From an uncultured Planctomycetota bacterium (GTDB taxonomy: Bacteria > Planctomycetota > Phycisphaerae > UBA1845 > UTPLA1): a stretch of 38,777 nt of DNA. Made by a program: the position numbers and the translations under genes. Shown one piece after another: positions 1 to 16,632 of this stretch (positions within the stretch are counted from its first letter, which is position 1; every line of letters starts with the position of its first letter). The stretch is taken from contig CAADGE010000014.1 of assembly GCA_900696465.1 (NCBI GenBank), positions 1 to 38,777 on the forward strand, written 5' to 3'. The notes below the pieces were generated by a model. That model did not search any database. It was not told the origin of the DNA and was given only the letters and a program-made list of their open reading frames with translations.

Positions 1-32
1 CCGCACTTTTTTCTCGGTCCTTCCGACGATGA

Positions 33-200
33 TGGCCCGGGTTGGCCTGCCGGCTCGACGCGACGATACCCATGACGGACGCCGGCGCTGTCTGCTTTGC
101 CATCACCCCCGTCCCCGAACCGGCCACAGCCGCCCTCTGCGCACTACCCATCCTCCTCATCCGCCGTCGCACGCGCAGCGTACCACTCCGCCCTTTGTAA
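33..200 (+). CDS. C-terminal remnant of a PEP-CTERM-type secreted protein (5' part outside window or frame-broken)
   Basis: The last 40 codons before the TAA at 198-200 encode a layout typical of PEP-CTERM sorting signals: a VPEP motif (codons at 111-122), a hydrophobic stretch (ATAALCALPILLI), then the basic cluster RRRTR. Such tails are removed by exosortase-type enzymes on export. The frame has a TGA at 30-32, so only about 55 codons are open. A different frame (starting at position 1) reads into the window and ends at the TGA at 73-75. Either a frameshift separates the tail from the body of the gene, or the resemblance is chance. No start codon or ribosome site was identified. The call rests on the tail pattern alone. 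Confidence 0.42.
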   Translation, partial: WPGLACRLDATIPMTDAGAVCFAITPVPEPATAALCALPILLIRRRTRSVPLRPL

Positions 201-284
201 TTCGCTATGGGTTGTCGGCACAATACCGGTGCGACATGTCATGGGCAGGATGCAGGCGCCACCCCGATCCGTCAGTGGGACACG

Positions 285-923
285 TCACATCACTTGCAGA
301 TGCCAGAGGAGCTCACGGTTGCCCGCGTGACCGCGGAGGGGGCTTTCGGTTTCGGCGAGGAGCTTGAGGCCCAGCGAAGTGAGCGATTCGCGAAGCGGCG
401 CGACGACGTGCTCCGTCAATTCATCGGGGAGTACGCCGCCGGTAAGCTCGTCGGGCGACGCCTCGTAGTGCGGCTTGATAAGACTGATGACATGGCAGAC
501 CGGCGCGATAAGTGTGCGTTGTGGCTCCCCCGGTTCATCGGCTGGTTGCACGGCGCCCCCGGGGGCTTCAGGTCGCAATGTAAGCCGTCGGGCGACCGGG
601 AGGATCAGCGATTGCCGCGTCCAGCCGACGTCGATGGTGACGAGGCGCACCGGCTCGGGCAGCGAGACGTGCAGGGCGTCGGTGCGCTCCATGACCACGA
701 CGCGAGCGTCTTTTCGCAGGCGGTAATCAAGCACGCCGTACCCGCGTTCGACCGCGTAGACTTTTGCCGCTCCGGCCTGCACGAGGCAATCCGTAAATCC
801 GCCGGCGTTCGCGCCGAGATCGGCGCAGATCCATCCGACCGGGGAAATATGAAAAGCATTCAGCGCGTGAGCAAGCTTTTCCCCGGCCCGGGAGACGAAT
901 CGGTCGTTGCGCGGTTTGGGCAT
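285..923 (-). CDS. TlyA/FtsJ-like rRNA methyltransferase lacking the S4 domain
   Basis: A 212-residue Rossmann-fold methyltransferase resembling the catalytic part of TlyA (ribosomal 2'-O-methyltransferase) and FtsJ/RrmJ. It opens with SRAGEKL (residues 11-17), followed by the SAM-binding motif DLGANAGGFTD (35-45). The family's K-D-K-E catalytic tetrad can be placed at K16, D98 (TIDVGW), K150 (LIKPHYE) and E204 (GNREL). Ordinary TlyA is about 270 residues with an N-terminal S4 RNA-binding domain of roughly 60 residues. Here the protein begins right at the methyltransferase core, so that domain is absent. The ATG at 923 lies 26 bases after the rpsT stop and no clear Shine-Dalgarno precedes it, so co-transcription with rpsT is likely. 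The substrate (16S or 23S rRNA, or another RNA) cannot be told from sequence. Confidence 0.8.
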   Translation of the reverse strand: MPKPRNDRFVSRAGEKLAHALNAFHISPVGWICADLGANAGGFTDCLVQAGAAKVYAVERGYGVLDYRLRKDARVVVMERTDALHVSLPEPVRLVTIDVGWTRQSLILPVARRLTLRPEAPGGAVQPADEPGEPQRTLIAPVCHVISLIKPHYEASPDELTGGVLPDELTEHVVAPLRESLTSLGLKLLAETESPLRGHAGNRELLWHLQVM

Positions 924-949
924 GGTTCGCGCGGCGGCAGCGCGGCAGA

Positions 950-1228
950 TCAGCTCTTGGCGCCGGCCTTCAAGGCATTGAGCCGCCTGGCCAGTCGGCT
1001 TTTACGGCGAGCAGCCGTGTTCGGGTGGACGGCGTGGCGGCAGGCGAAGCGGTCCAAGACCTTGGCCGCCTTGCGATAGGCCGTCTCCGCGGATGCGGCG
1101 TCCTTGCTGCTGACGGCGTCCGTAAACTCACGGATGCTGGTCTTGATGATGGTCTTGCGCACCTTGTTGCGCATGGCGCGCTTGGTGTTCTGCCGCATTC
1201 GCTTCTGTGAGGAAAGTGATCTGGCCAA
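950..1228 (-). CDS. rpsT: 30S ribosomal protein bS20
   Basis: A 92-residue, strongly basic protein whose beginning (ARSLSSQKRMRQNTKRAMRNK) and spacing of Lys/Arg-rich helices match bS20, which binds 16S rRNA early in small-subunit assembly. The pattern KAAKVLDRFACRHAVHPNTA near residues 54-73 matches the conserved KGVIHKNTAARKKSRL-type end of the family, and the length is usual (85-95 residues). The start is a TTG at 1228, chosen because it gives the canonical family N-terminus and has AGGAG six bases upstream. bS20 genes in other bacteria often have non-ATG starts, linked to autogenous control. A good promoter lies about 60 bases upstream. The TlyA-like gene follows and is probably in the same transcript. 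Confidence 0.95.
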   Translation of the reverse strand: MARSLSSQKRMRQNTKRAMRNKVRKTIIKTSIREFTDAVSSKDAASAETAYRKAAKVLDRFACRHAVHPNTAARRKSRLARRLNALKAGAKS

Positions 1229-1288
1229 AGTCTGCTCCTGTGCTCAGCGTCGATGCAATCTCGCGGTTACTTTATCCGTAGTCCGACA

Positions 1289-1316
1289 ATTATAACGCCG
1301 GATGACATCATTTAAA
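1289..1316 (-). promoter_or_regulatory. Putative sigma-70 promoter of rpsT
   Basis: On the minus strand a perfect -10 hexamer TATAAT (1294 to 1289) is preceded, after 16 bases, by TTTAAA (1316 to 1311), a 4/6 match to the -35 consensus. The start point would fall near 1282, giving a leader of about 54 bases before the rpsT TTG at 1228. AT-rich bases around it stand out in this GC-rich DNA. Confidence 0.62.
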
Positions 1317-1365
1317 CTATCCCGCATGCGGGTAAATGCCAGCAGGCATTTCAGGCCGGTCGTGG

Positions 1366-2856
1366 CTAATCCAGTTCGCCGGCGACGATTCGCTCCAGCC
1401 GCTGGCGGGCATCGCGGTAATTGTAATCGATCTGAATCAGTTCGCCATAGACCGCCCGGGCTTCGTCCTTCTTCCCGAGCTTCTCTAAGGTCCTGCCAAG
1501 CCAGTAATTAAGCTCAAGCGGCAGCTTCCCGGCGGTCGTCTCAAGGTCGCGGACGGCGGCCCGAAGGGTGCCGGCGGCCTGATCGTGGAAGTTCTTCTCG
1601 AAGAAGCACCGGCCGAGATAAAGCCGGCTCTCGAGCCGCAGCCGACCGTCGCCCTGCGACCGTTGAAACAGGGGGATGGCCTCGTCGAAGCGTCCTGCCT
1701 TGAAGAGCCGGACCCCGTGGTGAAAGTGGAGTTTCAGGTCGGTCGGGTACTTCTCGCGTCGCTCGGCGAAGATCTTTAATTCGGCTTCATTGATTCGCGC
1801 GGCCAATTCCTGCACCGCCTGTTGTGCGGTGGCGTCGCCGGCGCTGCGCTCGGCTTTTTCGACGGCCTGCCGCAACTGCCGCTGGAAATGGCGCATGCGG
1901 ACGTCGTCGGCTTTCATCTTGAAAGCGTAATTGTTCGTCGCCTTGTACTCGGCCTCCAGCAAAGCGATCGCTTCGCTGTCCGCCTTGGGATCGTCGGCCC
2001 GCAGCATCAGGTTGACGAGGTTGATGAGTTTGCCCGGCACGTCCCGCTGCGCGAGCCACTCCTCCCGCGCCTTGGCGATGAGCGACGCGAGTCGATCCTC
2101 GGACTGTATCGCTTTGTCGCGATCTCGCAGGTCGGCCTGGCGCTCGGCGTCGAGCATGGATTCGGTAATGTCGCCGTCGCGGCTGAACTTGCCCCTGGTG
2201 ATCGTCAGTTTTCCGGTGGCGTCACTGCGGGCGCGCTGCGCATCGAGCGACGTGGGATAGTGCTGCGCCCAGATCTGCGCCGTGGCGATGCATGCCTGCA
2301 GAATCTCCATCTGGATTCGATCGTCGCCGGCCTGAAGGGCGAACTCAGCAGCGTGATCCATCGCCGCGCAGGCGGCGGCATAGTGGGACATGGCCAGCTT
2401 CTTGCCAGACGTGTCGTAGGCCTCTACGAGCACCGGAGCGATCCACCAGACGACGCGATAGAGCATGCCCCGCGACGCCAGTTCCAGAATCTGCTCCATG
2501 TGGGGGATCGAGCCGGGGTCCAGTCCGTAAAGATGCAGGGCGTTGTTGAGATTCTTGAGCGAGTCCTTGCCGGACAGAGACAGCTTGCGCGAGGCCAGGA
2601 AGCCCGCCGGCTTGCCGCCTTCGAGCTTCCGCATCGTGGCGACGACTCGCAGGGGTTTTAGACCCTCTTCGACGGCATCAGGCCAGAGCGCCAGTCCGTC
2701 TGTGTAGAGCTTGATGGCGTAGTCGTAGTTTCGCTGTTCGGCGGCTTTCTTCGCGTGTTCGAAGAACTTTCGCGCCTTGCCGCGGCGTTCGTCATCCGCA
2801 CCGACGGCCGGTTGCGCTGAGGGAGGTGGAAGTTTGTCGCCCGATTCGCTGTGCAT
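1366..2856 (-). CDS. TPR-repeat protein of unknown function
   Basis: A 496-residue protein with no signal peptide and no membrane segment, so probably cytoplasmic. TPR-like helix pairs are visible at both ends: residues about 25-60 (KARKFFEHAKKAAEQRNYDY followed by AIKLYTDGLALWP) and about 370-490, with typical lines such as HHGVRLFKAGRFDEAIPLFQ and YWLGRTLEKLGKKDEARAVY. The middle (about 200-360) is a highly charged helical region rich in Arg, Lys, Asp and Glu, possibly coiled coil. TPR arrays mediate protein-protein contacts; no catalytic motif is visible and no partner can be named. The gene is divergent from def, and the intergenic 2857-3051 must hold both promoters. I do not recognise the family beyond the TPRs. 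Confidence 0.8.
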   Translation of the reverse strand: MHSESGDKLPPPSAQPAVGADDERRGKARKFFEHAKKAAEQRNYDYAIKLYTDGLALWPDAVEEGLKPLRVVATMRKLEGGKPAGFLASRKLSLSGKDSLKNLNNALHLYGLDPGSIPHMEQILELASRGMLYRVVWWIAPVLVEAYDTSGKKLAMSHYAAACAAMDHAAEFALQAGDDRIQMEILQACIATAQIWAQHYPTSLDAQRARSDATGKLTITRGKFSRDGDITESMLDAERQADLRDRDKAIQSEDRLASLIAKAREEWLAQRDVPGKLINLVNLMLRADDPKADSEAIALLEAEYKATNNYAFKMKADDVRMRHFQRQLRQAVEKAERSAGDATAQQAVQELAARINEAELKIFAERREKYPTDLKLHFHHGVRLFKAGRFDEAIPLFQRSQGDGRLRLESRLYLGRCFFEKNFHDQAAGTLRAAVRDLETTAGKLPLELNYWLGRTLEKLGKKDEARAVYGELIQIDYNYRDARQRLERIVAGELD

Positions 2857-3051
2857 GGATCACGAGGTGCAGGTTGGCCGGTCGTGACAAAGCTCATGAC
2901 GATCGCTTGCACGACAGCGACCGCGCTTTGAACGCATCGGCGACCGACCGGCTGATGCCGTGCGCTGCTGGTGGCGTTTTCAGTTTCGCGCCGCGCCGCT
3001 ACACTACAATGGATTATACCGCGAATAAGGTCTTGCGGGAGAGGCGCTTGC

Positions 3052-3591
3052 ATGTCGAGGGACTGGTCGAAGCTTCAGATCGTTTGCTATCCGGACCCTG
3101 TCCTGAGGAAGGTCTGCCGGCCGGTCGAGGCGTTCGATGCCGACCTCGCGGCCCTGGCCGAGCGGATGCTCGAACTCATGCGGGCAGAACAGGGCGTCGG
3201 ACTGGCCGCGCCGCAGGTTGGTCTGCCATTGCGGCTTTTTGTCTGCAACGTTACCGGCGATCTGAAGGATGACATGATTCTCGTCAACCCCGAAATCCGC
3301 GAGACTTTCGGAGATGCGGAATCGCAGGAGGGGTGCCTGTCGATACCGGACGTAACGGTGACCGTCCGCCGGGCTCAGCGCTGCCGTATCGTGGCGAGCG
3401 ATCTGACGGGGCGACCGATCGAAGCCGACGGAGCTGACCTGTTGGCGCGGTGCTGGCAGCACGAGCTGGATCATCTGAACGGGCGGCTGATCATCGACGC
3501 CATGTCGGAGACCGATCGCATCGCCAATCGAAAGACGCTCCGGGAACTCGAGCGCAAGCACAAGTCCTCCCGCGGTGTCGTGGCCCTTTGA
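3052..3591 (+). CDS. def: Peptide deformylase
   Basis: A 179-residue metalloenzyme that removes the formyl group from the N-terminal Met of new proteins. All three family motifs are present: GVGLAAPQVG (48-57), EGCLS with the metal ligand C95, and HELDH (137-141) with metal ligands H137 and H141 and catalytic E138. The ATG at 3052 was chosen over the in-frame upstream ATG at 2971 because it yields the normal family length and has a GGGAGAGG ribosome site 8-15 bases upstream. A possible -10 (TACAAT, 3005-3010) lies upstream, but no good -35 was found. It is followed 41 bases later by fmt, the enzyme that adds the formyl group, and then by rsmB. This def-fmt-rsmB order is common in bacteria and suggests one operon. 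Confidence 0.96.
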   Translation: MSRDWSKLQIVCYPDPVLRKVCRPVEAFDADLAALAERMLELMRAEQGVGLAAPQVGLPLRLFVCNVTGDLKDDMILVNPEIRETFGDAESQEGCLSIPDVTVTVRRAQRCRIVASDLTGRPIEADGADLLARCWQHELDHLNGRLIIDAMSETDRIANRKTLRELERKHKSSRGVVAL

Positions 3592-3632
3592 CCGGCGGAT
3601 GCGGCGCGGCGCGCTCCGGCAGGAAGTTCCTG

Positions 3633-4619
3633 ATGCGTGTGCTTTTTTTTGGTTCCGGCGAGTTCGCCATTCCCACGCTGCGATCGATCGCGCATGACGG
3701 CCACGAAATCGTCATGGTCGTCAGTCAGCCGGACAAGCCGCGCGGCCGCGGCAAAGACGTGACACCGACGCCCCTGAAGCGTGAAGCGCTCGAACTGGGC
3801 CTGCCGGTTGTCACACCATCGGACGTGAACGCGGCGGACGAGGTGGCGCATCTGCTCTCCCTGAAGGCGGACCTCGCATATGTCGCGGCCTTCGGGCAGA
3901 AGATCGGCCCGGCACTGCTTTCGGGATTCCCGGCGGGCATCATCAATCTGCACGCTTCACTTTTGCCGGCACTGCGCGGTGCGGCGCCGATTCAGTGGGC
4001 GGTTATCCGCGGATTGATGGAGACCGGCGTCACGATTTTCCGGCTGGTCGAAAAGATGGACGCCGGGCCGATCCTCGTGCAGCGGCGGACGCGCATCGCT
4101 CCGGAAGAAACGGCCGATGAGCTTCACGACCGGCTGTCGCGGATCGGATGTGATGCCGTTCGCGCGACACTGGAATTGCTGTCAGGCGAACCGACCGCGC
4201 CGGGCACACCGCAGGATGCATCGCTCGTGACCTATGCACCGAAACTGACCAAGGCGGACGGGCACATCCGGTTTGACATGCCGGCCCATGAGCTGGCCTG
4301 CCGTATCTGCGGCCTGTGGTCGTGGCCGGGGGCGGTATGTCGATTTGTATCATCCGACGGAAAGCGTGACGAGCAGGTGACACTGGCACGGGCACGCGCC
4401 TACGACCTGCGCACGCGCGCGGCGGCGACGCCCGATGAGGCCGGCCGCATCAACGACATGATGCGCGTTCAGACGGCGGATGCGGAGCTGGAGGTGCTGG
4501 AGATCAAGCCGTCCGGCGGGCGATGCATGAGCTGGCAGGACTACGTCAATGGCCGGCACGTGCGCGAGGGCGATCGCTTCGTACCGATCGCGCCGGATGT
4601 TGCAGAGAGGATGAGATGA
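3633..4619 (+). CDS. fmt: Methionyl-tRNA formyltransferase
   Basis: A 328-residue enzyme that formylates initiator Met-tRNA using 10-formyl-tetrahydrofolate. The N-terminal Rossmann domain starts MRVLFFGSGEFAIP. The catalytic signature is seen as NLHASLLPALRGAAPI (N105, H107, with the SLLP folate-binding motif) and D143 in KMDAGPI. The C-terminal OB-fold domain (about 210-315) that binds tRNA is complete. The ATG at 3633 is supported by the family N-terminus and by AGGAAG at 3621-3626; an open frame extends further upstream but runs across the end of def. The stop overlaps the rsmB start as ATGA (4616-4619), so translation of the two is probably coupled. Confidence 0.96.
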   Translation: MRVLFFGSGEFAIPTLRSIAHDGHEIVMVVSQPDKPRGRGKDVTPTPLKREALELGLPVVTPSDVNAADEVAHLLSLKADLAYVAAFGQKIGPALLSGFPAGIINLHASLLPALRGAAPIQWAVIRGLMETGVTIFRLVEKMDAGPILVQRRTRIAPEETADELHDRLSRIGCDAVRATLELLSGEPTAPGTPQDASLVTYAPKLTKADGHIRFDMPAHELACRICGLWSWPGAVCRFVSSDGKRDEQVTLARARAYDLRTRAAATPDEAGRINDMMRVQTADAELEVLEIKPSGGRCMSWQDYVNGRHVREGDRFVPIAPDVAERMR

Positions 4620-6007
4620 CAGCGACCACTTCGAGTCATCGCAGTGCGCGCGAGCGCGCCGTCAAGGCGCTGGTGCAGTCTTACGACGGGCTGATCCGCG
4701 GGCGCGACGTGCTTGATCGCATGCAGGCGGAGGGCCCACTGTCCGTGGTGGATGCGGCTCTGGCATCGGAGCTGGTCTCGGGCGTGCTTCGGCACCGGAT
4801 TACTCTCGAACACATCTGCGCTCGGTTTTATCGCGGTCGCTGGGAGGGGCTGCGGCCGGCCGTGCGGATGATCCTCGCGGTGGCGGCTTATCAACTGTGC
4901 TGGCTGGACCGGATTCCGTCGCACGCCGCGGTGAACGAGGCCGTCAAGCATGCCCGGCGACATGGCAAGGGGGCGGCCGGGGTGGTGAACGCCGTACTGC
5001 GACAGATAACGGAGTGCCGAGGCGATGTCAGTGCGTATTCCACCGATGTCGATCCGCGTCGCTGGCTGCCGCTCGACGCTGAGCGCGGCCGGCGATTCGA
5101 ACAGGACCTGTTTCCCGACCCTGCCCGTCGCCCGCTGGATTATCTGGTGACCGCAACATCGCACTCCATGTATCTCGTGGAGCGCTGGCACCGGCGGTTC
5201 AAGCCGGCGGGCTGTCGGCAGATCTGTGAGGCGGGGCGATCGCGTCCGCCGCTTGTGCTGCGCGTCAATACCATGCGGACAAGTGCCGAGGCGCTGACCG
5301 CGCGGCTGGAAGCGGCGGGACATCGTTGCGTGCGCGTGAGCGATCCCGACGCTGTCGTCCTGCCGGACCACCCGTCGATTGTTGATACGCCGGAGTTCGC
5401 CGAGGGCCTCTGCCAGCCGCAGGACCTGACTTCGCAGCGTGCCCTGCTGCTCGCGCCGCCGGCATCGGGCGAATTCGTGCTCGATTTTTGCGCCGGCGTC
5501 GGCACGAAATCCACGCAGGCAGCGGAGCGGATGGGCAATTGCGGCCTGGTCGTAGCTACTGATGTCGATGCATCGCGTCTGGAGCGCATCCCTGAGAACG
5601 CCGCCCGGTTGGGTATTTCGATCGTGCAGACGTGCCCTTCGCAGGAATTGCCGGCCACGCTGGCGCGGATTGGCCGCAAGCCGGACCTGATCGTGGTGGA
5701 CGCACCCTGCACGAATACGGGTGTGCTCTCGCGGCGGCTCGAGGCGCGGTATCGCGCGAGTCATCGGCATCTGCAGGAGATGGCTGCGTTGCAGAAGGAG
5801 CTGCTCGGGCAGGCGGCGGAGATCGCGGGCCCACGGACGCGGATCATCTACGCGACCTGTTCGATCGAACGAGAGGAAAACGAGGAAGTGATTGCCGAGT
5901 TCGCCGGCCGGCACGACGGCTGGCAGGTTGTGAAGCAGGAGTTCGTGCTGCCGGATGTCGCGCGCGGCGGCGGCTTCGCGGCGCTGCTGATGCGTGATTC
6001 AGTATGA
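4616..6007 (+). CDS. rsmB: 16S rRNA (cytosine-C5)-methyltransferase RsmB
   Basis: A 463-residue RsmB/Sun family enzyme that makes m5C967 (E. coli numbering) in 16S rRNA. Residues about 8-140 form the NusB-like RNA-binding domain, with conserved lines such as AVKALVQSY and PSHAAVNEAVKHARR. The catalytic domain has SAM motif I at 288-299 (VLDFCAGVGTKS; the usual form is LCAAPGGKT, so slightly diverged), the Pro-Cys motif IV DAPCTNTGVLSR (C365) and the Thr-Cys motif VI ATCSIEREENE (C415). Both cysteines needed by m5C RNA methyltransferases are present. The start ATG overlaps the fmt stop (ATGA). The NusB-like domain separates it from RsmF or other NOL1/NOP2 relatives. Confidence 0.93.
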   Translation: MTATTSSHRSARERAVKALVQSYDGLIRGRDVLDRMQAEGPLSVVDAALASELVSGVLRHRITLEHICARFYRGRWEGLRPAVRMILAVAAYQLCWLDRIPSHAAVNEAVKHARRHGKGAAGVVNAVLRQITECRGDVSAYSTDVDPRRWLPLDAERGRRFEQDLFPDPARRPLDYLVTATSHSMYLVERWHRRFKPAGCRQICEAGRSRPPLVLRVNTMRTSAEALTARLEAAGHRCVRVSDPDAVVLPDHPSIVDTPEFAEGLCQPQDLTSQRALLLAPPASGEFVLDFCAGVGTKSTQAAERMGNCGLVVATDVDASRLERIPENAARLGISIVQTCPSQELPATLARIGRKPDLIVVDAPCTNTGVLSRRLEARYRASHRHLQEMAALQKELLGQAAEIAGPRTRIIYATCSIEREENEEVIAEFAGRHDGWQVVKQEFVLPDVARGGGFAALLMRDSV

Positions 6008-6061
6008 GGATCGGTAACCGCTGGGCGAGCAATGATCGCGAACAAGCACCGCGCCGGCGGC

Positions 6062-6814
6062 TTACGATCCCTGCAACTGGGCCATGATCTCGTCGGGCAT
6101 CTCGAAATTGGTGTAGACGTTCTGAACGTCGTCGTGATCTTCAAAGGCCTCGATGAGCTTGAGGACTTTGGTACCCGTTTCGGCGTCGACGATAACTGTC
6201 GACTGCGGCCGCATGGTGAGTTCGGCGCGCTCGGTGGCGATCTTGCGCGCTTCAAGCGCTTTGCGCACGGCCTCGTATGCCTGTACCTCGCAGGTGACTT
6301 CAAAACCGTCGTCGTCGCGGGCGACGTCGTCGGCGCCGGCTTCGAGAGCGACTTCCATGAGCGTATCTTCATCTACGACATCGGACTTGATGCGAAACGT
6401 GCCGAGGGCCTTGAAGTTCCAACTGACGCAATTTGCCGTGCCCATGTTGCCGCCGCCGCGCTCGAAGAGTTTTTTGATCTCCGGCGCGGTGCGATGGGGG
6501 TTGTCGGTCAGGGCGTCGACGATGAAGGCGACACCGCCGGGGCCGTAGCCCTCGTACTGTACGGGAGCGTAGGCCTCACCACCCAGTTCGCCGGTGCCTT
6601 TCTTGATGGCCTTGTCGATCGTGTCGGACGGCATGTTGGCCGCCTTGGCCTTGTCGATCGCGTATCGCAGCGAAAGATTCATCGACGGATCACCTCCGCC
6701 GGTCCGCGCGGCGACGATCAGGTTTCTCGCCAGTTTGCTCCAGAGCTTTCCGCGGCGCGCATCGGTGATCGCCTTCTTGTGCTTGATGTTTGCCCACTTA
6801 CTGTGACCAGCCAT
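6062..6814 (-). CDS. yebC: YebC/TACO1-family protein
   Basis: A 250-residue protein with the family's invariant beginning MAGHSKWANIKHKK and the inner lines LRYAIDKAKAANMPSDTIDKAIKKG and YEGYGPGG. The length is normal (240-250 residues) and all three domains seem intact. YebC proteins were long annotated as transcriptional regulators; work on bacterial and mitochondrial members also links them to translation, especially at proline stretches. The ATG at 6814 is fixed by the conserved N-terminus. A TATAAT lies 55 bases upstream at 6874-6869. The gene is convergent with rsmB; no clear terminator was found in the 54 bases between them. Confidence 0.95.
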   Translation of the reverse strand: MAGHSKWANIKHKKAITDARRGKLWSKLARNLIVAARTGGGDPSMNLSLRYAIDKAKAANMPSDTIDKAIKKGTGELGGEAYAPVQYEGYGPGGVAFIVDALTDNPHRTAPEIKKLFERGGGNMGTANCVSWNFKALGTFRIKSDVVDEDTLMEVALEAGADDVARDDDGFEVTCEVQAYEAVRKALEARKIATERAELTMRPQSTVIVDAETGTKVLKLIEAFEDHDDVQNVYTNFEMPDEIMAQLQGS

Positions 6815-6868
6815 GACGACACCCGGAGAAACGATCGACGTTCAATCACTCACTCTGTCCACGGGAGA

Positions 6869-6874
6869 ATTATA
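6869..6874 (-). promoter_or_regulatory. Putative -10 element of the yebC promoter
   Basis: A perfect TATAAT on the minus strand sits in the 87-base gap between the large TPR lipoprotein gene and yebC, about 55 bases before the yebC ATG. Its surroundings (CGTTATAATT) are the same as at the rpsT promoter. No matching -35 is visible at 16-18 bases, so the call rests on the -10 and its place. Confidence 0.5.
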
Positions 6875-6901
6875 ACGTGGAGAGGCGATCGCGGTACCCG
6901 G

Positions 6902-9900
6902 TTACGGTGCATCGCCGCCCGGGGGTTTCGTGGATGCCTGCCGCGCGGCGCTGCCGTCTCGCTCCGGCTGTTCGGTTTGCGCCAGCGGCGCTGTTTCAAC
7001 CGTTTCTCCGCGATCGAGCTGGGCGAGCTTGGCGCGGACGGCATCGTGAAGCCGCAGGTCTTCGAGAATGGGGGGCGGGTAGCGGTCGCGATCGCTCAGG
7101 CGAAGGGCCTCTTCCCAGTTCTTTCGGGCCTCGTCGACGCGACCGGCGCGATACAGTGCATCGGCCAGGTGGTCGTACATCACGGCATCATCCCGCGCGG
7201 TCAGGAGAATGGCGCGTTCGAGCAGCTCGATGGCTGCTTCGAATCGGCCCTGCTTGTAAAAGACCCAGCCGAGACTGTCGAGGTAGGCCGAGTTCAGCGG
7301 CTCTTCGCTCAGGGCATGGCGAATCATCCGCTCGGCTTCATCGAGGCGGATACCTTCGTCGGCGAGCGTGTAGCCCAGGTCGTTGTGGATGCCGACGAGT
7401 TCCTGCTTGAGCGCGCCGGAGTGCGGATTGGCCTCGGACAGACCCTTCGTCAGTTCGAAGACTTCCTCCAACTGCTGGATGGCCTGCATATTTCGGTCGG
7501 TGAGCTGGAAGATTCTCGCCATCTGCCTTCGCAGGGCGACGAGCGTCGCATAATCAAACCGTTCGGCGCCATCCTGCGCAGACGTCTTCTGGCTGAGTAG
7601 TCCGCTGACTTCCTTTTCGACTTCGTCGAACCGCTGGGCTTCGATGAGTGTGTTGAAGAGCTGCTGATCGGTGCCTTCGCTTCGCAGACGGCCGCCGATC
7701 CGGCGATAGACTTCGACGGCGTCATCCCAACGCTGCAGCAGGCGATAAGAGGTCGCCAGCATGCGCTCATACTCCCGGCGGAATCGCGGGTCCTCCATGC
7801 CGGTCTGCACGGTCTCGACGGCGCTCTCGGCATCGCGTGCTTCCCAGAAGACGCCCACCAGCAGGGCGGTCATTTCGTAATCGTCGGCGTCTTCCTCCAG
7901 CCATTCGAGCACGCGCTGCTGGGCCTCCGCAAATCGTTTCGCAGCGACCAACTGGCCGATGTATCGCTGTCGCCATGCGGTGTCCGTCGGCTCCTCATCG
8001 AGCCATCGCCGCGCGGCTGAAACGGCTTCGTCCATCCGGCCCGCGTCGCGCAGCGCCGACAGGTACAACTCTCGGAGAATCTGATCGTCGGGCTGTTCGT
8101 CCAGCCAATGTCGTGCGAGCTCGATGCGCTCCTCGTGACGCTTTGCGTAGCCAAGCACGGCGGCGAGCTGATTTCGATAGAGCGGGACGAATTCTGAGTC
8201 CGCTTCACGGTCCAGGAGATTCCGCAACTCCGCAGCCGCGGTGTCGAGATCGCCGAGAGCCAGTGAGAAGCGAACCAGGCGGTGCCGCGCGTCCAGATCG
8301 TTCGGGCGAATTTCCAGCAGGCGGCGGGTTGTTTCGACGGCGAGACGGAAATCGAGCAGGCGCGAGAGGTACTCAGCGCGGCGCTTCAGCGCGTCCACGT
8401 CGGCCGCATCGATTGCCAGGGCCGCATCCACCTCTCGAAGTGCATCTTTGTACTCACCCACGGCTTCGTGGCTCATCGCCAGTGCCATGTGGGTGGCAGC
8501 TTCACCGGGGTGCTTTTCCAGGATGCGGCGGAGATCGGAGCGGTACTCGTCCAGCCGTTCCTGGCCGCGGACGGCCCGGCTGGTGGCCAGCTTGAGCAGG
8601 GCGCGGCATCGTTCGACGGCGCCGCCGGACTGACCCAGCCGCTCGAAATCCGCGAAGTACTCCTTGGCTCGATCCGTCTTCTGGGTGTTGAGCAACAGTC
8701 GCACGAGACGCTCGCGGGCCGGGATGCAGCGCGGGTCCACGTCGTCGAGGATGCGACGGTAGAGTTGTTCACTTCGGACCAGGTCGCCGCGGCGCTCGAT
8801 CGATTCGGCCAGGCGCAGCAGCGGCTCCGGTCTGCTGCGGTCCAGTCGAAAGGCATCGAGGAAGGCGGCTTCCGCCCGAGTGTCTTCGCCCAGCGCGTCA
8901 CAGGCCAGTGCGCAGATCATGTGCAATTCCGGAAGCTCCGCGCCGTCCTTAATGGCTGCGTCGGCCGAGGCCAGGGCTGCGGCGTAATCGTGCTGCTGAA
9001 GTGCGATGCGCGCCAGCAGGACCGTTGCCGTCGTGTATTCAGGATCCAGCCGAAGCGCTTCGCGGCACTGGACGGCAGCTTCCTGCGAACGGCCTGCTGC
9101 CAGTTCGCAGAGCGCCAGCAACAGGCAGCCGGTCGCGTTGTTCCAGTCGCGCGCCTGTCTCGCGCGGACGACCTCGGTCAATGCACCGATGACGCCGGTT
9201 GACGCACTGTTGCCGATCAGGCGCTCGACGACGTCGTACGCTTCGGGCGACGCGCTCAGCAGTCGGTGGAGCATTACCGCGGCATCGGTCGCCTCGCCCA
9301 GTTCCAGACGCAGACGGGCGAGCAGCTGCAAGGCGTCGGTGTTCTGCGGATCGGCCTCACAGACACCTGTAAGCACCTGCGCCGCCGGTTGACGCTTGCC
9401 GCGATCGAGCAGGATTTCCGAAATGCGAATCCGCACGCCGGGGCGATCGCTCTGTTCGGCGATGCGAACGAGCTGTTCGTCGTAGAGCTGCGGTCGGTCC
9501 GCCTGTCTGCAGACGGTTTCGAGCAGCGCGAGGTTGTTCTCCGTGAAATCGTCCGCCTCGGTCAGATTGCGCGCGGCCCGGTCGATGGCTTCGTCGTGCC
9601 GGCCGGCCTTCGCGAGCGCGCTGACATACTGTGCCGCGAGGGCCGCATCTTCCGGGCTTTGCTCGACTGCGATCCGGTACGCCTCCACGGCACGCTCGGG
9701 CTGTCGCAGTTCGAGGAGGATTTCGCCGAGCAGCGCAGGAGCGCGACCACGATAGAGGATGCGCATCTCGCGTAACTCGCGATAGCTCTCCATCTCACTT
9801 GTCGGCTCGCGCACGGCGCTCAGGTAGGCCTCCAACTGCTCGGCTGCGGCGGTCAGATACCCTTCTTCCTTCAGTGCGAGCGCCAGAGAGAGGTGAGCCA

Positions 9901-10444
9901 GGACGCGCTCGGGTCGGCGCGGCGTATCTTCACTGGCAAGCAGCGCCAGGCGGAATGAAGCAATGGCCTGCTTGCGCTTGCGATGGGAGAGCGCCAGCTC
10001 CCCCTGTAACTGATGAACAGCGGGGTTGCGTGGCGCCAGTCGCGCGGCCTCTTCCAGATGGCTCGTGGCCAGGGGCAGATTACCGTGTTGCATGGCAGCG
10101 CGAGCCAGCAGGATGCGGGCTTCGATCAGGTCCGGATCGACCTGCAGCGCCTTCTCCAGCGCGGAGGTGGCGTCCGCCCAGAGGCCCTCGTTGAACCGCT
10201 CCTGGCCGGTGCGCAGGTGGCGCATCGCCTGCGGGGCCGGCTCATGTTCGACGGTCGCGGGACCGATCGGCAACACGGGCACGGGCTGGATCTCGCTCGT
10301 GGTCAGCATCGCTTTGGCGGGAAGTTCGGGACGGGCTTCGACGGAGGGAGATTGCTCCTGCGGCATGGCACAGCCCGAGATGCCAAAGAGCGAGAGAGCA
10401 AGGGCGGCGTGGAGCGGTCGGAAACATCGCCGTAGGGGGTTCAT
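6902..10444 (-). CDS. Very large TPR-repeat lipoprotein
   Basis: An 1180-residue protein with a lipoprotein signal: basic start, hydrophobic stretch LHAALALSLFGIS and lipobox ISGC (C25), so it is likely lipid-anchored on the outside of the inner membrane or at the outer membrane. The rest is an almost unbroken run of TPR units from about residue 70 to 1145, easily seen in lines such as ARILLARAAMQHGNLPLATS and SLGWVFYKQGRFEAAIELLE. A low-complexity tail follows. No enzyme motif is present. Large TPR lipoproteins of this kind act as scaffolds in envelope biogenesis. One related idea is the PrsT-like TPR lipoproteins that accompany PEP-CTERM/exosortase systems, but I cannot confirm that here. 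The ATG at 10444 is fixed by the signal peptide. yebC lies 87 bases downstream with its own -10. Confidence 0.85.
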   Translation of the reverse strand: MNPLRRCFRPLHAALALSLFGISGCAMPQEQSPSVEARPELPAKAMLTTSEIQPVPVLPIGPATVEHEPAPQAMRHLRTGQERFNEGLWADATSALEKALQVDPDLIEARILLARAAMQHGNLPLATSHLEEAARLAPRNPAVHQLQGELALSHRKRKQAIASFRLALLASEDTPRRPERVLAHLSLALALKEEGYLTAAAEQLEAYLSAVREPTSEMESYRELREMRILYRGRAPALLGEILLELRQPERAVEAYRIAVEQSPEDAALAAQYVSALAKAGRHDEAIDRAARNLTEADDFTENNLALLETVCRQADRPQLYDEQLVRIAEQSDRPGVRIRISEILLDRGKRQPAAQVLTGVCEADPQNTDALQLLARLRLELGEATDAAVMLHRLLSASPEAYDVVERLIGNSASTGVIGALTEVVRARQARDWNNATGCLLLALCELAAGRSQEAAVQCREALRLDPEYTTATVLLARIALQQHDYAAALASADAAIKDGAELPELHMICALACDALGEDTRAEAAFLDAFRLDRSRPEPLLRLAESIERRGDLVRSEQLYRRILDDVDPRCIPARERLVRLLLNTQKTDRAKEYFADFERLGQSGGAVERCRALLKLATSRAVRGQERLDEYRSDLRRILEKHPGEAATHMALAMSHEAVGEYKDALREVDAALAIDAADVDALKRRAEYLSRLLDFRLAVETTRRLLEIRPNDLDARHRLVRFSLALGDLDTAAAELRNLLDREADSEFVPLYRNQLAAVLGYAKRHEERIELARHWLDEQPDDQILRELYLSALRDAGRMDEAVSAARRWLDEEPTDTAWRQRYIGQLVAAKRFAEAQQRVLEWLEEDADDYEMTALLVGVFWEARDAESAVETVQTGMEDPRFRREYERMLATSYRLLQRWDDAVEVYRRIGGRLRSEGTDQQLFNTLIEAQRFDEVEKEVSGLLSQKTSAQDGAERFDYATLVALRRQMARIFQLTDRNMQAIQQLEEVFELTKGLSEANPHSGALKQELVGIHNDLGYTLADEGIRLDEAERMIRHALSEEPLNSAYLDSLGWVFYKQGRFEAAIELLERAILLTARDDAVMYDHLADALYRAGRVDEARKNWEEALRLSDRDRYPPPILEDLRLHDAVRAKLAQLDRGETVETAPLAQTEQPERDGSAARQASTKPPGGDAP

Positions 10445-10653: not shown

Positions 10654-11532
10654 TCAGCGGTGTCTTCGCAGGGATCGCGAGGGACGTTTTACGGATTTCC
10701 TTGATGTCGCTGCGGCTTTGGCCGGGCGGCTGGAACGTTTCCGGTTGGGTGAGCCCTTGGCACGGGAGGCGGCACTGGACCGGTTGCCTTTCTTCGGCCG
10801 CGCCTTGGGTGCCGGCTTACCTGGAGTCGCGGTGGATTTCTTCTTCGGCTCCGAGTTTGCGGCGGCGGGTTTGGCCGGCGGCGTTGCGAGTGCCGCTGGC
10901 GGGGTCGGCGGCGGTGGAAGCTTGCGCGGCACGTGTGTCGCAGCGTAGCGTTTGAACTGGGCGTAGAACGATGCGGCCTGTGACTCGCGGATCTGGCTGG
11001 CGAGGAATTTCTGGATCTGTTCCGTGGTGGCGTCCGGCTCCACGCAGCCCTCGCGGCGCATGATCTCGCACATCGTCGCGTCCGCAGGGACGGCGTGCCC
11101 CCTCAGGCAACGAAGCATGACCGTCGCCCGGGCATGCGGGTTGACGCCGTCGAGACTGTTGAGGAAGGATTCGGCGGTTCGCCGGCCTGCCTTCTTCAGG
11201 AAGCTCAGGTCGAGGTGGTGCAGCTTGTTGAAGATGACGATGAGCGCTTTGACGATGTCTTCAGCGGCCTTACGGCACATGGGGAAGTCGGCGCCGATGG
11301 CCTCGACGATCTCCGCGACCGGCGTGACGCGAAGGTCGTTGATATCGACGACGGTTTCCCAGAGTCGGGCGAGACCGGCGTTGGCCCGGGTTTCGGAAGC
11401 GTGGTCCGTGAGGATGCCGCGAAGCATCTGTTCCATGGGGTCGTCGACCTGCGGGAAGGGCGTGGCGTTTTCCTTCCGTATTTTCTTGAGCAGCTTCCTG
11501 AATTCACGAATGTGCTGCGCCGCGTTTTTCAT
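10654..11532 (-). CDS. HhH-GPD (endonuclease III-fold) protein with basic Lys/Pro/Ala tail
   Basis: A 292-residue protein. Residues about 1-200 look like the endonuclease III/HhH-GPD base-excision fold: LRGILTDHASETRA resembles the family's ILS.Q..D, and residues 127-160 match the helix-hairpin-helix plus catalytic region (LDGVNPHARATVML, then VPADATM). The essential Asp of the family fits D151. The position of the catalytic Lys of bifunctional endonuclease III (K120 in E. coli) is H133. The C-terminal four-cysteine Fe-S motif is missing. Residues about 203-292 are a tail of Lys, Arg, Pro, Ala and Ser resembling histone H1-like bacterial tails. It may be a monofunctional glycosylase, or a DNA-binding protein without catalysis. 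The start overlaps the rbfA stop as ATGA, so the two are probably co-translated. Confidence 0.72.
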   Translation of the reverse strand: MKNAAQHIREFRKLLKKIRKENATPFPQVDDPMEQMLRGILTDHASETRANAGLARLWETVVDINDLRVTPVAEIVEAIGADFPMCRKAAEDIVKALIVIFNKLHHLDLSFLKKAGRRTAESFLNSLDGVNPHARATVMLRCLRGHAVPADATMCEIMRREGCVEPDATTEQIQKFLASQIRESQAASFYAQFKRYAATHVPRKLPPPPTPPAALATPPAKPAAANSEPKKKSTATPGKPAPKARPKKGNRSSAASRAKGSPNRKRSSRPAKAAATSRKSVKRPSRSLRRHR

Positions 11533-11957
11533 GCATCAGCTCCGTGGGCCGGGTCCTGACCGGCGTCGGGTTGGGTCGAAGCGCCGGGGTCGCGCGACCG
11601 ATCGGCCGGCGTTTCCTGGTGCATGACCTCGTCGATTTTTCGGATGGTTTCGATGGCGATCTTGATGCCGAGATCGAGATGGAAGCGCACGGACGGGCAC
11701 TGCCGCATGTCGAGTCGCTTGGCCAGCATTCCCTGGATGATGCCGCGGGCGCTTTCCAGCCCTTTCATCGTCGTGCGGCCTTCGGTTTCCGTGCCCATCA
11801 CGCTCACGTACACGTCGGCCTGGCGCAGGTCGCCGCTCATCTCGACGCGTGTAATGCTGGTAAAGCGGTGGATCCGCGGGTCGGACAGGCGCAGGGAAAT
11901 CGCCTCGCTCACGACGTCGCGCACCGCGTGGGCCACCCGTTCGGGGCGATAGGACAT
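11529..11957 (-). CDS. rbfA: Ribosome-binding factor A
   Basis: A 142-residue protein that acts late in 30S maturation on the 16S rRNA 5' helix. It shows the type II KH-like RbfA domain: RPERVAHAVRDVVSEAI near the start, LSDPRIHRFTSITRVEMSGDLRQADVYVSV in the middle, and RQCPSVRFHLDLGI at about 98-111. The ATG at 11957 is preferred over an open extension upstream because it gives the family N-terminus and has an AGGGGGAAAG ribosome site 5-14 bases upstream. The last 25 or so residues are a disordered Asp/Pro/Ala-rich tail. It is followed by the HhH-GPD-like gene through an ATGA overlap. truB, the gene often found here, is absent. Confidence 0.92.
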   Translation of the reverse strand: MSYRPERVAHAVRDVVSEAISLRLSDPRIHRFTSITRVEMSGDLRQADVYVSVMGTETEGRTTMKGLESARGIIQGMLAKRLDMRQCPSVRFHLDLGIKIAIETIRKIDEVMHQETPADRSRDPGASTQPDAGQDPAHGADA

Positions 11958-12053: not shown

Positions 12054-12335
12054 TCAGAACAGTTCAATCCCATAGTCGACCAGACAGATCGATCGCACGA
12101 CGCGGACTTCATCGACGATCTTCGAGAGACACGAATCGGTGAATCGACGGTCGTTGGACACCATGGCCACCGCGAGGACGCTGGTCCGATGCTCGTCCAG
12201 GTCGTCTACTTCCGCGACGGAGACGTTGTGCCGGCCGGCCAATCGATCCTTGAGCCCTTTTATCACGCGCCGCTTGTCCTTCAGCGACATCGCACCAGGT
12301 ATGGTCAGCTCCATCCGTAACACACCAATGACCAT
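12054..12335 (-). CDS. ylxP: YlxP/DUF503 family protein
   Basis: A 93-residue protein of the DUF503 (YlxP) family, recognised by MSLKDKRRVIKGLKDRL and VAEVDDLDEHRTSVLAVA, and by its place between infB and rbfA, where this family usually sits. Its role is not well defined; the conserved position implies a link to ribosome assembly or translation. It begins 39 bases after the infB stop and ends 96 bases before rbfA. No strong Shine-Dalgarno is visible before the ATG at 12335. Confidence 0.88.
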   Translation of the reverse strand: MVIGVLRMELTIPGAMSLKDKRRVIKGLKDRLAGRHNVSVAEVDDLDEHRTSVLAVAMVSNDRRFTDSCLSKIVDEVRVVRSICLVDYGIELF

Positions 12336-12374: not shown

Positions 12375-15146
12375 TTATCGCACGCCGGCCGTCTCCAGCT
12401 TTCGGGCGACCTTGACGACTTCGAAGGCCTCGATCACGTCGCCCGGCTTGAGGTCGTCGAACGACTCGATTCGGATGCCGCACTCGAAACCGCTCTTAAC
12501 TTCGCGTACGTCGTCCTTGAAGCGTCGGAGCGATTCGATCTGTGCCGCATCCTTGACCACCACGCCGTCGCGTACCACACGAACGCGGTTCGATCGCTGG
12601 ATGACGCCGTCGCGAACGAAACAACCGGCGATGCGGCCGACCTTCGAGATGCTGAAGACTTCTCGCACCTCAGCGCGGCCGCGGGATTCGATCTTCTCGT
12701 CCGGCTCCAGCAGGCCCTCAAGCGCCTTGCGGATGTCATCCAGCACTTCATAGATGACGCGATAGGTGCGGATGTCCACGCCCAGGCCGTCGGCCATCTT
12801 CTGTATCGTCGGGTCGGGCACCACGTAGAACGCAATGATGATCGCCTGGCTGGCCTGTGCCAGGACCAGGTCGGACTCCGTCACCGCGCCGACGCCGGAG
12901 TGCAGCACCACCAGCCGCACCTGGTCCACCGGGAACTCGGCGAGGGCCTTCTTGAGGACGTCGACCGAGCCCTGCACGTCGGCTTTGAGGATGACCGGCA
13001 GCGTGGGCACTTCGCCCTCGGCGGCACCGGCCAGCAGCGATTCGAGGTTCGTCGGCTTGGAGACGCGGATGAGCTGTTCCTGGCGGCGGCGCTCGGCCTC
13101 GTCCTGTGCGATTTCCTTGGCGCGCTGCAAACTGTCGACCACGAAAAAGCGATCGCCGGCCATCGGCACATCGGACAGACCGGTGACCTCAACAGGCGTC
13201 GACGGGCCGGCCTCCTTGACGGTTTTGCCGTGATCGTCGCGCAGACTTCGGACGCGGCCGAAGGCCGGACCGCAGACCAGAAAATCACCGGCCCTGAGCG
13301 TGCCTTCCTGCACAAGCAGGTGGGCCACGTTGCCCTGGCCTTCGGTGCGCTCGGCTTCGATGACCGTACCGGTCGCGGGAATCGTCGGGTCGGCCTTCAG
13401 ATCGAGCACTTCGCTGAGGGTCGCCAGGTGAGCGAGGAGGTCGTCAATACCCTGGCCGGTCGTTGCTGATGTCTTGATGACGTCGGTATCGCCGCCCCAG
13501 TCGCCGCTGGGAGTGAGGCCGTGTTCCGTGAGCTGGCCATAGATCTTGTTGATGTCGTGCGGCAGATCAATCTTGTTGAGCGCGACGACGATCGTCGTAT
13601 TGGCCGCCTTGGCGTGGTTGATCGCTTCGATGGTCGTTGGCATGACGCCGTCGTCCGCCGCCACGACCAGCACGACCACGTCGGTCATGTTCGCGCCGCG
13701 GGCACGCATGGCCGTGAAGGCGGCGTGGCCCGGCGTATCCAGAAAGGCGACCCAGCGATCACCGACGCGGGCCCGATAGGCGCCGATGTGCTGAGTGATG
13801 CCGCCTGCCTCACCGGCGGCGACATTGGCATTGCGAATGCGATCGAGCAGACTCGTTTTTCCGTGGTCGACATGGCCCAGCACGGTGACGACCGGCGGCC
13901 TCGGCTTGAGTTTCTTGCGGGGGATGGCGTCGAATTCGTCCTTGAGTTTTTCGAGGGCGGATTTGGCCTTGATGACCGTCAGCTCGACCCCGTACTCCAG
14001 CGCGATGATCTGAGCGGTTTCGGTGGGGATGGCCGTGTTGATCATCGCCAACTGGCCATGATCCTGCATGAGCTTCTTGACGATGTCGGCGACGGGGACA
14101 CCGATCTCGCGCGAGAAATCCTTCACGATGATCGGCTCGACGAGTTCGACCTTGTCCTTGCGGACGTGGGATGGCGCGGCGCGCGGGCCGGTGGATCGCC
14201 GCGAGGGTTGTTTCCCCTCGATCGCCCGAAGGCCGCCGATACCTCTGCCGGAGGCGTGCGCCAGCCGGTCCTTTCGTTCGATTAAATCACGGTCGCGCCA
14301 TTCGCGCAGTTTTTCGTTGACTTCCTCGCGGTGATCGCGAATGCCGCGACGCGGATGGACCCGGCCCTCGGCCGTGGCCTCGCCGGCGCGAACTTCCTTG
14401 CCCTTGCCATGTCGCGGTTTGTCACGACGATCGTCTTCGTCCTCGACGACCGCCCCACGGCCGGGCAGCGGACCGACCGAAGGTCGCGGCGGCGGCCGTA
14501 CGCTGGGCCGCGGGCGCTCGATCGGCTCCGGTTTGTCCATGCGAATGACTTTGGGGCCGGTGAGTTTCGCCGGCTGGGGGACGTTCTGCGGGCCGACGGG
14601 CGGCGGTGGAGCTGCTTTTTCGCGTGTCCCCGGTGTGCGTGCCGCCGGAGCCGCGGGCGTGTCTACGACCGGCGGAGTTTCAATGACGGTCGGGACTTCA
14701 GCAACCGGTGACTCCGTGGGCACCTCGGCCGCGAGATTGACGTCTTCTGCAGGGGCTTCAGCGGCGAGTTCCAGTGACGGTGCCTCTGTTCTCTCGGGGG
14801 CGGTCGGCGGAGTGGTAACGACGGCTTCTCGCGCTTCGGCGGAGGGGGCCGGTGCTTCGAGAACAGCCACACCGCCGGCAGCTTCTTCGCCGGGCTTGGC
14901 TGCTTTCTTCACGGACTTGCGCTTGATCTTGACCTTCTCGATTTCGACGGGCTTGGCTTCTTCAACCGCGCTGGAGTGCAGACCGGGGGTGAACCACTCG
15001 CGAATGGTGGCTTCGAGGCCGGCCGAGACGACGTGCATGTGGTTCTTCACGTCGATGCCTTCGGCGCGGCACTTGTCGATGATCGCCTGGCTCTTGACGT
15101 CCAGTTCTTTCGCCAGGTTGTGCACTCGCACTTTCTTGTCAGCCAA
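12375..15146 (-). CDS. infB: Translation initiation factor IF-2
   Basis: The GTPase that places initiator tRNA in the ribosomal P site. From the TTG at 15146 the protein is 923 residues. It has an N-terminal IF2_N domain ([17 protein letters not shown]), a long Pro/Ala/Glu/Arg-rich linker (about 60-290), a second IF2_N-like segment ([16 protein letters not shown]), and the G domain with G1 GHVDHGKTS (about 424-432), G3 DTPGH and G4 NKID, followed by domains II-IV. I chose TTG at 15146 rather than the ATG at 15179 because a GGAG (15157-15154) sits 7 bases before the TTG and the product then starts [15 protein letters not shown], as relatives do. The upstream ATG has no Shine-Dalgarno. The gene lies between nusA and ylxP in the usual order. 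Confidence 0.95.
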
Positions 15147-15276
15147 AACGCGTCTCCAGTCTGTTTCGCCCCGTGTCATCCGGGTCGCCGTCGGACGACC
15201 TTACTAACGACCAGGTTTTTCAAACTCCCTGTTCGCCGACTCGCCTCACCAAGCCGCTGCCGAACAAGACAACTGA

Positions 15277-16632
15277 TCATCCGGCAGCCGGCGCGCCCTG
15301 ATCCGCTGCTGCCGGCTCCGTCTCTGCCTCCGTGGTTGATTCATCGATGCCTGCTTCGGCTGACGGGCTGGCGTCACCATCCAGCGTCGCGCCCTCGGAA
15401 TGACCGCCCTCAGCGGCCATCGACGATGCCAGCGCGGCGGCCGCGGCCTTCTCCTGTGCGAGACGGGCTTTTTCCTCGGCCAGCTCGACCTGCACGATCT
15501 TGGCTTCCTCGGCACAGCGGGCAACGACCTTTTCGGCGAGTTCCGGTTCGAGTTTGAGCTCTTCGACGAGCGGCCCTGTGCCGACCTCTTCGACATCCAT
15601 CACGCTGATGAGGCCCATCAGAACGACGCGCTCGACGATCATCTCGTCCACACCTTCGACCTGGCGAATGGTCGCCGCGAGGCGATCCAAACCGCGGTTG
15701 TATTCCTTCGGCGTGAGGATATCGATGTCCCAGCCGGTCAACCGGGCGGCAAGTCGCACGTTCTGTCCGCGCTTGCCGATTGCCAGCGAGAGCTGCTCTT
15801 CCGGCACGACGACCGTGGCGCGATCCAGTTCGAAGCACAGGGCGATGTCCTGAATCTCGGCCGGCTTGAGGGCGTTGGAAATCAGAATCTGCGATGACTC
15901 GTTCCAGCGGACGATGTCGATCTTCTCGCCGCCGAGTTCCTCGACGATGTTCTTAATCCGGCTGCCGCGGACGCCGACGCAGGCGCCGACCGCGTCCACT
16001 TTGGTGTCGATCGACGAGACAGCGACCTTGGTGCGGTAGCCGGCTTCACGGGCGAGGGCCTTGATCTCGATGATTCGCTCGGCGACTTCGGGCACTTCCA
16101 CCTCGAAAAGCCGGCGGATGAAGTCGGGATGGCTTCGAGAGAGGATGATCTTCACCTGGTGCGGGGCCTCGCGGACGTCGAGGATGAGCGTGCGGATGCG
16201 TTCGCCGGGCTGGTGTGTTTCGCCGGGGATCTGCTCGCTGCGCGGCAGGAAACCCTCGGTGCGGCCGATGTTGACCACCAGGGCACCGCCTTCGAAGCGC
16301 GAGACCGTTCCGGTCACGATGGTGCCTTTGCGCTCGAGGAATTCTTCGTAGATGCTGCCGCGTTCGGCCTCGCGGATTTTCTGGATCATGACCTGCTTGG
16401 CGGTCTGTGCGGCGATCCGCCCGAGGTCGTTCATGGAGATCGCTTCGCCGTTCAGCGAAGCGCTGATGTCTCCCGAGAGCCGGTCGATGGAGACGACGAC
16501 TTCTTCTTCGGGGCCGTATTTCTTGCGGATCGCCGATTCCATGGCCAGCTCGAGGTCTTCGAGGACCGTGTCCTTGTCGATGTTCTTGTCGCGGGCCAGG
16601 CCGTCGACGATGCGGATGAGTTCTGCGTTCAC
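15277..16632 (-). CDS. nusA: Transcription termination/antitermination factor NusA
   Basis: A 451-residue RNA polymerase-binding factor. It has the N-terminal polymerase-binding domain (1-125), an S1 domain (about 130-200, starting GTIVTGTVSRFEGGALVVNI) and two KH domains. KH1 holds the family hallmark VDAVGACVGVRGSRIKNIV and KH2 holds IGKRGQNVRLAARLTGWDI. After about residue 345 comes a short helical region and an acidic Ala/Glu-rich tail; the second acidic-repeat domain of E. coli NusA is missing. The start is GTG at 16632 with AGGAAAG upstream. rimP, which usually precedes nusA, is absent. A strong hairpin with a T-run lies about 100 bases upstream on the same strand. Confidence 0.95.
   Translation of the reverse strand: MNAELIRIVDGLARDKNIDKDTVLEDLELAMESAIRKKYGPEEEVVVSIDRLSGDISASLNGEAISMNDLGRIAAQTAKQVMIQKIREAERGSIYEEFLERKGTIVTGTVSRFEGGALVVNIGRTEGFLPRSEQIPGETHQPGERIRTLILDVREAPHQVKIILSRSHPDFIRRLFEVEVPEVAERIIEIKALAREAGYRTKVAVSSIDTKVDAVGACVGVRGSRIKNIVEELGGEKIDIVRWNESSQILISNALKPAEIQDIALCFELDRATVVVPEEQLSLAIGKRGQNVRLAARLTGWDIDILTPKEYNRGLDRLAATIRQVEGVDEMIVERVVLMGLISVMDVEEVGTGPLVEELKLEPELAEKVVARCAEEAKIVQVELAEEKARLAQEKAAAAALASSMAAEGGHSEGATLDGDASPSAEAGIDESTTEAETEPAAADQGAPAAG

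Follow-up and report, generated by a model that had tools for sequence, protein, structure and literature searches.

A predicted endonuclease III-fold protein with degraded catalytic residues and a basic tail encoded next to rbfA in Planctomycetota

What could a relative of endonuclease III (EndoIII) be doing in a cluster of translation genes once its catalytic and iron-sulphur residues are largely gone? This question is raised by a gene located at 10654..11532 (minus strand) of the window, i.e., the whole 38,777-nucleotide stretch of planctomycete DNA analysed here. It is an ORF with an ATG start, backed by orthologues and by the predicted fold of its product, a protein of 292 residues with a pI of 10.7. 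Since the core has a dN of 0.17 against a dS of 1.09 in comparison with the nearest relative, and orthologues are present in 58 out of 61 genomes, it is a genuine gene rather than a chance ORF.

The locus and its conservation

The gene is located immediately downstream of rbfA (11529..11957, minus strand; NCBIfam rbfA 6.8e-22, Pfam RBFA 1.3e-26), coding for a 30S assembly factor. The ATGA overlap pointed out in the initial annotation is present at 11529..11532 (minus strand), with the TGA stop codon of rbfA lying inside it, and 38 of the 57 order-level loci have a 4-base overlap; translation of the gene may be coupled to that of rbfA. Further upstream on the same strand are a small ORF (12054..12335, by ORF reading), which we take to be DUF503-like, infB coding for IF2 (12375..15179, recognised by its GTPase sequence) and nusA (15277..16632; Pfam NusA_N and KH_5). 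Downstream, also on the minus strand, are the genes for a TPR protein of 1180 residues (6902..10444; Pfam TPR) and for a YebC/TACO1 family protein (6062..6814; Pfam TACO1/YebC). In many order-level loci the cluster continues with the TPR gene, which separates the gene from yebC. YebC is reported to be a translation factor that contacts rRNA (PMC12234827).

Of 61 genomes searched (including the one containing the window), 59 gave a match and 58 had an orthologue. The sole match in G060 is an EndoIII paralogue (L104) with the Lys and the four Cys, and in G057 and G060, which have no orthologue, rbfA was not found either. rbfA is located directly upstream, on the same strand, in all 57 order-level loci besides the window. 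A scan of genome contigs, with patterns tuned to close relatives, gave 33 named loci, all of them from Planctomycetota and partly from the same genomes; rbfA is upstream in 32 of these, and the 33rd begins at a contig edge. The linkage to ribosome assembly and translation genes is conserved, the pairing with rbfA being stronger than initially claimed and yebC appearing as the second frequent neighbour.

On the phylum scale, the window core alone as a query has found matches in 79 of 149 Planctomycetota genomes, and a profile query in 141 of 149 at E 1e-5, some of the best matches being ordinary EndoIII. Among the best matches listed, 27/126 are within 5 kb of rbfA, 48/124 within 5 kb of yebC and 58/132 within 5 kb of either, the best match listed lying within 5 kb of neither gene in 74 of 132 genomes; these counts include many fragmented assemblies and some EndoIII-type best matches. 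The true nth gene, taken as a control in the same genomes, is never found within 5 kb of rbfA (0/108) or yebC (0/103), and rbfA and yebC are themselves at most 5 kb apart in 22 of 130 phylum genomes. In several distant families (L190-L196) about 2-4 kb of other sequence lies between rbfA and the relative, which adjoins yebC.

In G013, a genome of the same family with 99% completeness, infB, the small ORF, rbfA, the TPR gene and yebC follow one another in this order (L261, G013:C22:84500-92500, 3-7955), and the gene is missing between rbfA and the TPR gene of this otherwise intact cluster. The only profile match in G013 is located elsewhere on the same contig. Judging by the gene order, the gap is probably a natural deletion, and since the cluster is intact without it, the gene appears to be dispensable in G013.

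No match to the window core was found in plasmids by tblastn, and the viral contigs searched contained no relative. A distant family member used as a tblastn query matched seven plasmid records from Haloarcula, Halobaculum, Azospirillum and Methylobacterium; one carries no annotation and the others are labelled DNA lyase, endonuclease III or HesB. Literature on Planctomycetes together with endonuclease III/rbfA, HhH-GPD or H1-like proteins, judged by title and the beginning of the abstract and mostly from outside subscription journals, included nothing on this family.

Catalytic residues, fold and evolution

Positions of the catalytic Lys and Asp were established by alignment with Nth of the same genome (GVARKTA) and with EndoIII-1-like paralogues of related genomes. 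The initial annotation described a His in place of the Schiff-base Lys, a retained Asp and the lack of the four Cys, and the alignment agrees in all three respects. His133 is found at the Lys site, within the segment LDGVNPHARA (11125..11154, minus strand; aligned with Nth and MutY of the same genome and EndoIII paralogues), Asp151 (codon 11080..11082, minus strand) aligns with the catalytic Asp of Nth, and the Fe-S motif C-x6-C-x2-C-x5-C is missing. The hairpin of the helix-hairpin-helix, of which the initial annotation named the LDGV segment, is degraded too: its GxG became GVN, with Asn131 replacing the second Gly.

In the 58 order-level sequences the Lys column contains Tyr (27), His (12), Phe (6) and other residues (13), but never Lys, while the Asp column contains Asp (44), Asn (6), Thr (4), Ser (3) and Gly (1). 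Of these sequences, 7 retain the second Gly of the hairpin and none retains the Fe-S motif. A broader set of 147 family rows (58 order-level and 89 others, coming from only a part of the matching phylum genomes) was counted after setting aside 12 EndoIII/MutY-type rows: Nth, MutY and C21 of the same genome, L099-L105, L119 and L218. In this set, whose most distant members align with some uncertainty at residues 133 and 151, Lys is found once (L213, a doubtful alignment), Asp in 81 rows, a non-Asp residue at the Asp column in 66, and both catalytic residues are missing in 65; the four-Cys motif is present in 37. L218, the best phylum match in its genome, has the Lys and no Asn65, and keeping it would change the counts to 2 Lys and 147 Asn65 out of 148. 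The initial interpretation, which a Lys aligned with the active site would have contradicted, withstands these figures (0/58 and 1/147). Losing only the Lys would suit a monofunctional glycosylase; the argument against catalysis comes from the Asp, which is absent repeatedly.

AlphaFold2 modelling based on the 31-sequence profile alignment A5 produced a confident EndoIII fold (mean pLDDT 93.7, pTM 0.88), the folded core covering residues 1-203 (10924..11532, minus strand) with pLDDT mostly at or above 90. The top structural match is EndoIII-3 of D. radiodurans, both in Foldseek (5.9e-8) and in VIA (4uob, Z 18.3, rmsd 3.7-3.8, 204 residues aligned), followed by EndoIII-1, ROS1, bacterial EndoIII and MagIII in an order that differs slightly between the two programs; VIA comparison with EndoIII 1orp gave Z 15.8. 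The A5 profile compared with PDB sequences also matched EndoIII-1 (2e-15), EndoIII-3 (2.8e-09), ROS1 (1.5e-07) and bacterial EndoIII 1orn (2.9e-05). The two-domain helical fold of EndoIII, predicted by AlphaFold2 and recognised by Foldseek and VIA, is supported by the sequence match and the predicted structure together.

Curated family models see this relationship only at a distance, the window protein being below both the Pfam and the NCBIfam cut-offs. In Pfam, PF00730 (HhH-GPD) gave no match to it up to E 10; out of 31 family members this model finds 3 with E up to 1 (best 0.0031). TIGR01083 is absent from the NCBIfam matches of the window protein and picks up 8 of 31 members with E up to 1 (best 0.00027). 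In NCBIfam the protein comes closest to NF053634 (monofunctional DNA glycosylase, DR2438), with 8.3e-06 and 25.5 bits against a cut-off of 400 bits; the same model matches 27 of 31 diverse members at E up to 1, at best with 4.1e-15. A match to a known monofunctional glycosylase family would have contradicted the initial interpretation, and the score of the window protein is far below that level. In six members that are long or distant, a search for fusion domains found no Pfam match above its cut-off and one, to DUF4487, below it.

EndoIII-1 (DR2438) and EndoIII-3 of D. radiodurans, the best PDB profile matches, share the fold over about 200 residues. EndoIII-1 keeps both the catalytic Lys and the Asp (GVGVKTA...PVDTHV), and PMC9268735 reports the same two residues for EndoIII-3 and a [4Fe-4S] cluster for both proteins, whereas the window protein lacks the Lys and the four Cys. 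According to the same source, EndoIII-3 itself had no detectable activity on common EndoIII substrates (PMC9268735). The core of the Arabidopsis 5-methylcytosine glycosylase ROS1 is the best single-sequence PDB match (0.038; VIA Z 15.9). ROS1 is a large active enzyme.

A FastTree phylogeny of 119 rows, with long branches, has split 11 EndoIII-type references (including MutY of the same genome) from 108 family rows with a support of 98. The Fe-S trait changes 10 times on this tree, at least three of the changes being forced by well-supported branches, and the motif is kept in four (L112, L121, L182, L184) of the 19 rbfA-adjacent members outside the order. In the simplest reading, for a method that treats gains and losses alike, the Lys was lost first and only once while the Fe-S motif was lost later and several times. 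Overall, the suggestion that this is a glycosylase relative with lost catalytic residues is backed by the predicted fold, the remote sequence match and the pattern of residue loss; as for the activity itself, we infer that it was lost as well.

The conserved motif and the basic tail

The most conserved polar residues of the family are located at or within a short helix (residues 64-69, DSSP on the model) and form a motif D63-x-N65-[ED]66-x-R68-V69 (11326..11346, minus strand). N65 and R68 are found in 147 out of 147 family rows, as is Glu or Asp at position 66, and D63 in 141; the invariance of N65 and R68 is selection-biased, as the search profiles include the motif and the 12 EndoIII/MutY-type rows were removed before the count. 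In these 12 references the same columns contain no Asn65 and four Arg68 (C21 and MutY of the same genome, L103, L218). EndoIII-1 does not have the motif, reading DWDAIT at that place, and ROS1 shares the VDW...R segment without the Asn (VDWKAIR). L218, with its Lys, Asp and four Cys, reads ADWDAVRKA, which suggests that the motif was derived from an older DW...R segment. D63, N65, E66 and R68 may constitute a new functional surface.

The tail of about 90 residues rich in Lys, Pro, Ala and Arg, described initially, corresponds to residues 204-292 (10657..10923, minus strand). It contains 26 K/R and a single D/E, has no secondary structure in the model (block means of pLDDT 51-76) and is predicted to be disordered, as expected for an H1-like Lys/Ala/Pro-rich region. 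Compared with the nearest relative, the tail has a dN of 0.72 and a dS of 1.95; in this comparison it changes faster than the core yet holds its composition. Tails of at least 20 residues are present in 55 of 58 order-level sequences, in 49 of them with at least 20% K+R. Family-wide, 91 of 147 rows have a tail that reaches 20 residues and a K+R share of 25% or more (70 of 110 without the Fe-S motif and 21 of 37 with it).

L064, L071 and L089 have about 15 residues past the core, in L064 without any K/R, and the sequences of L076 and L098 reach contig ends. Outside the order, L124 and L125 are tail-less, ending two residues past the core. At the other extreme, AKKKA-like repeat tails of up to about 200 residues are found in other planctomycete families (L190, L203, L221, L222, L224, L238, L243), and long AKKKA-type tails also occur on members with the Fe-S motif (L208, L238).

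Possible function and alternatives

We tentatively favour, at somewhat less than even confidence, the explanation that a catalytically dead EndoIII-type descendant was reused as a basic nucleic-acid binder, most likely on rRNA or ribosomal particles. An EndoIII-type DNA glycosylase ancestor would have given rise to a catalytically dead descendant which kept the folded core as a binding module, while the polycationic tail would grip nucleic acid. Nucleic-acid binding is plausible from the tail and the modelled fold. The protein could then be an auxiliary factor of small-subunit maturation or translation that acts on rRNA or ribosomal particles and that at least one relative manages without. Action on the ribosome or rRNA is considered most likely because the gene overlaps rbfA and, in its own order, clusters with infB, rbfA and often yebC. 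RNA or the ribosome would accordingly be the target, although the gene order from which we lean to this side rather than to the nucleoid may stem from an old housekeeping cluster and not from a common function.

The fold belongs to a DNA-binding family and H1-like tails are typical of DNA-compacting proteins, so a nucleoid protein has to be considered, in which the dead core would recognise duplex or bent DNA, the tail would compact it and the position next to rbfA would only provide high expression. In other planctomycete families the AKKKA repeats are very long, which is in line with this, as are the condensed nucleoids described for PVC bacteria (PMC3177640). We nevertheless regard it as rather unlikely: the neighbours are translation genes, the net charge of the core is small (order median +2) and the Fe-S motif is missing in all 58 order-level sequences. 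Just 7 of them keep the second Gly of the hairpin, a residue in contact with DNA in EndoIII.

An enzyme that is still active is less probable again. MutY and AlkA work without the Schiff-base Lys, and a monofunctional DNA glycosylase could similarly use Asp151 alone; some room for such activity is left because this protein and 44 of 58 close relatives keep Asp151. In 27 of 58 sequences the Lys site is occupied by Tyr, as in MutY of the same genome, and the distant NF053634 match, with the E-values given above for the window protein and the best member, points in the same direction. We consider this improbable all the same, as the Asp column is non-Asp in 14 of 58 close relatives and in 66 of 147 rows while N65 and R68 stay constant, the hairpin Gly is lost, and the genome encodes Nth, MutY and one more HhH-GPD protein anyway. 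A slightly better, but still small, chance is given to a protein-protein adaptor, in which the tail would be no more than generic glue and the motif would dock a partner, for instance RbfA, IF2 or YebC. The tight gene coupling would suit it, and so would the fact that the polar residues conserved best lie in a short helix which, judging by helix order and by EndoIII structures, is outside the known DNA-contact loops.

Returning to the RNA-binding explanation, its broadest form describes a so far undescribed ribosome-associated factor of the whole phylum, a base-excision-repair glycosylase turned into a non-catalytic RNA binder, its D-x-N-[ED]-x-R site being new and invariant and its H1-like tail having been lengthened repeatedly; relatives that retain the Fe-S motif would be surviving intermediates of this conversion. 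We find this form possible but doubtful. If right, a DNA-repair fold was shifted to RNA or ribosome work phylum-wide, with intermediates still having the Fe-S ligands, and planctomycetes gain an additional candidate factor, placed between RbfA and YebC. On a plain reading, too, this is a widespread planctomycete family which the Pfam and NCBIfam versions used leave unresolved, and the sharp motif makes its function accessible via two point mutants.

A precedent for a repair-fold protein retained for binding is Mag2 of S. pombe, an AlkA-like eukaryotic glycosylase homolog which has lost glycosylase activity; to our knowledge, it has neither a basic tail nor a link to ribosome genes. It is reported to bind DNA at abasic sites, and its structure (4b23) was matched by Foldseek at 7.2e-04. 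Lys/Ala/Pro-rich disordered tails are shared with the H1-like bacterial proteins AlgP, Hc1 and HupB, none of which, as far as we know, is fused to an EndoIII fold. The title of PMC9239181 describes AlgP as H1-like.

The third HhH-GPD protein of the same genome (L003, G000:C21:449-883) has Glu at the Lys site (GIGRETADSILLY) and retains the Asp; presumably, it is MagIII-like.
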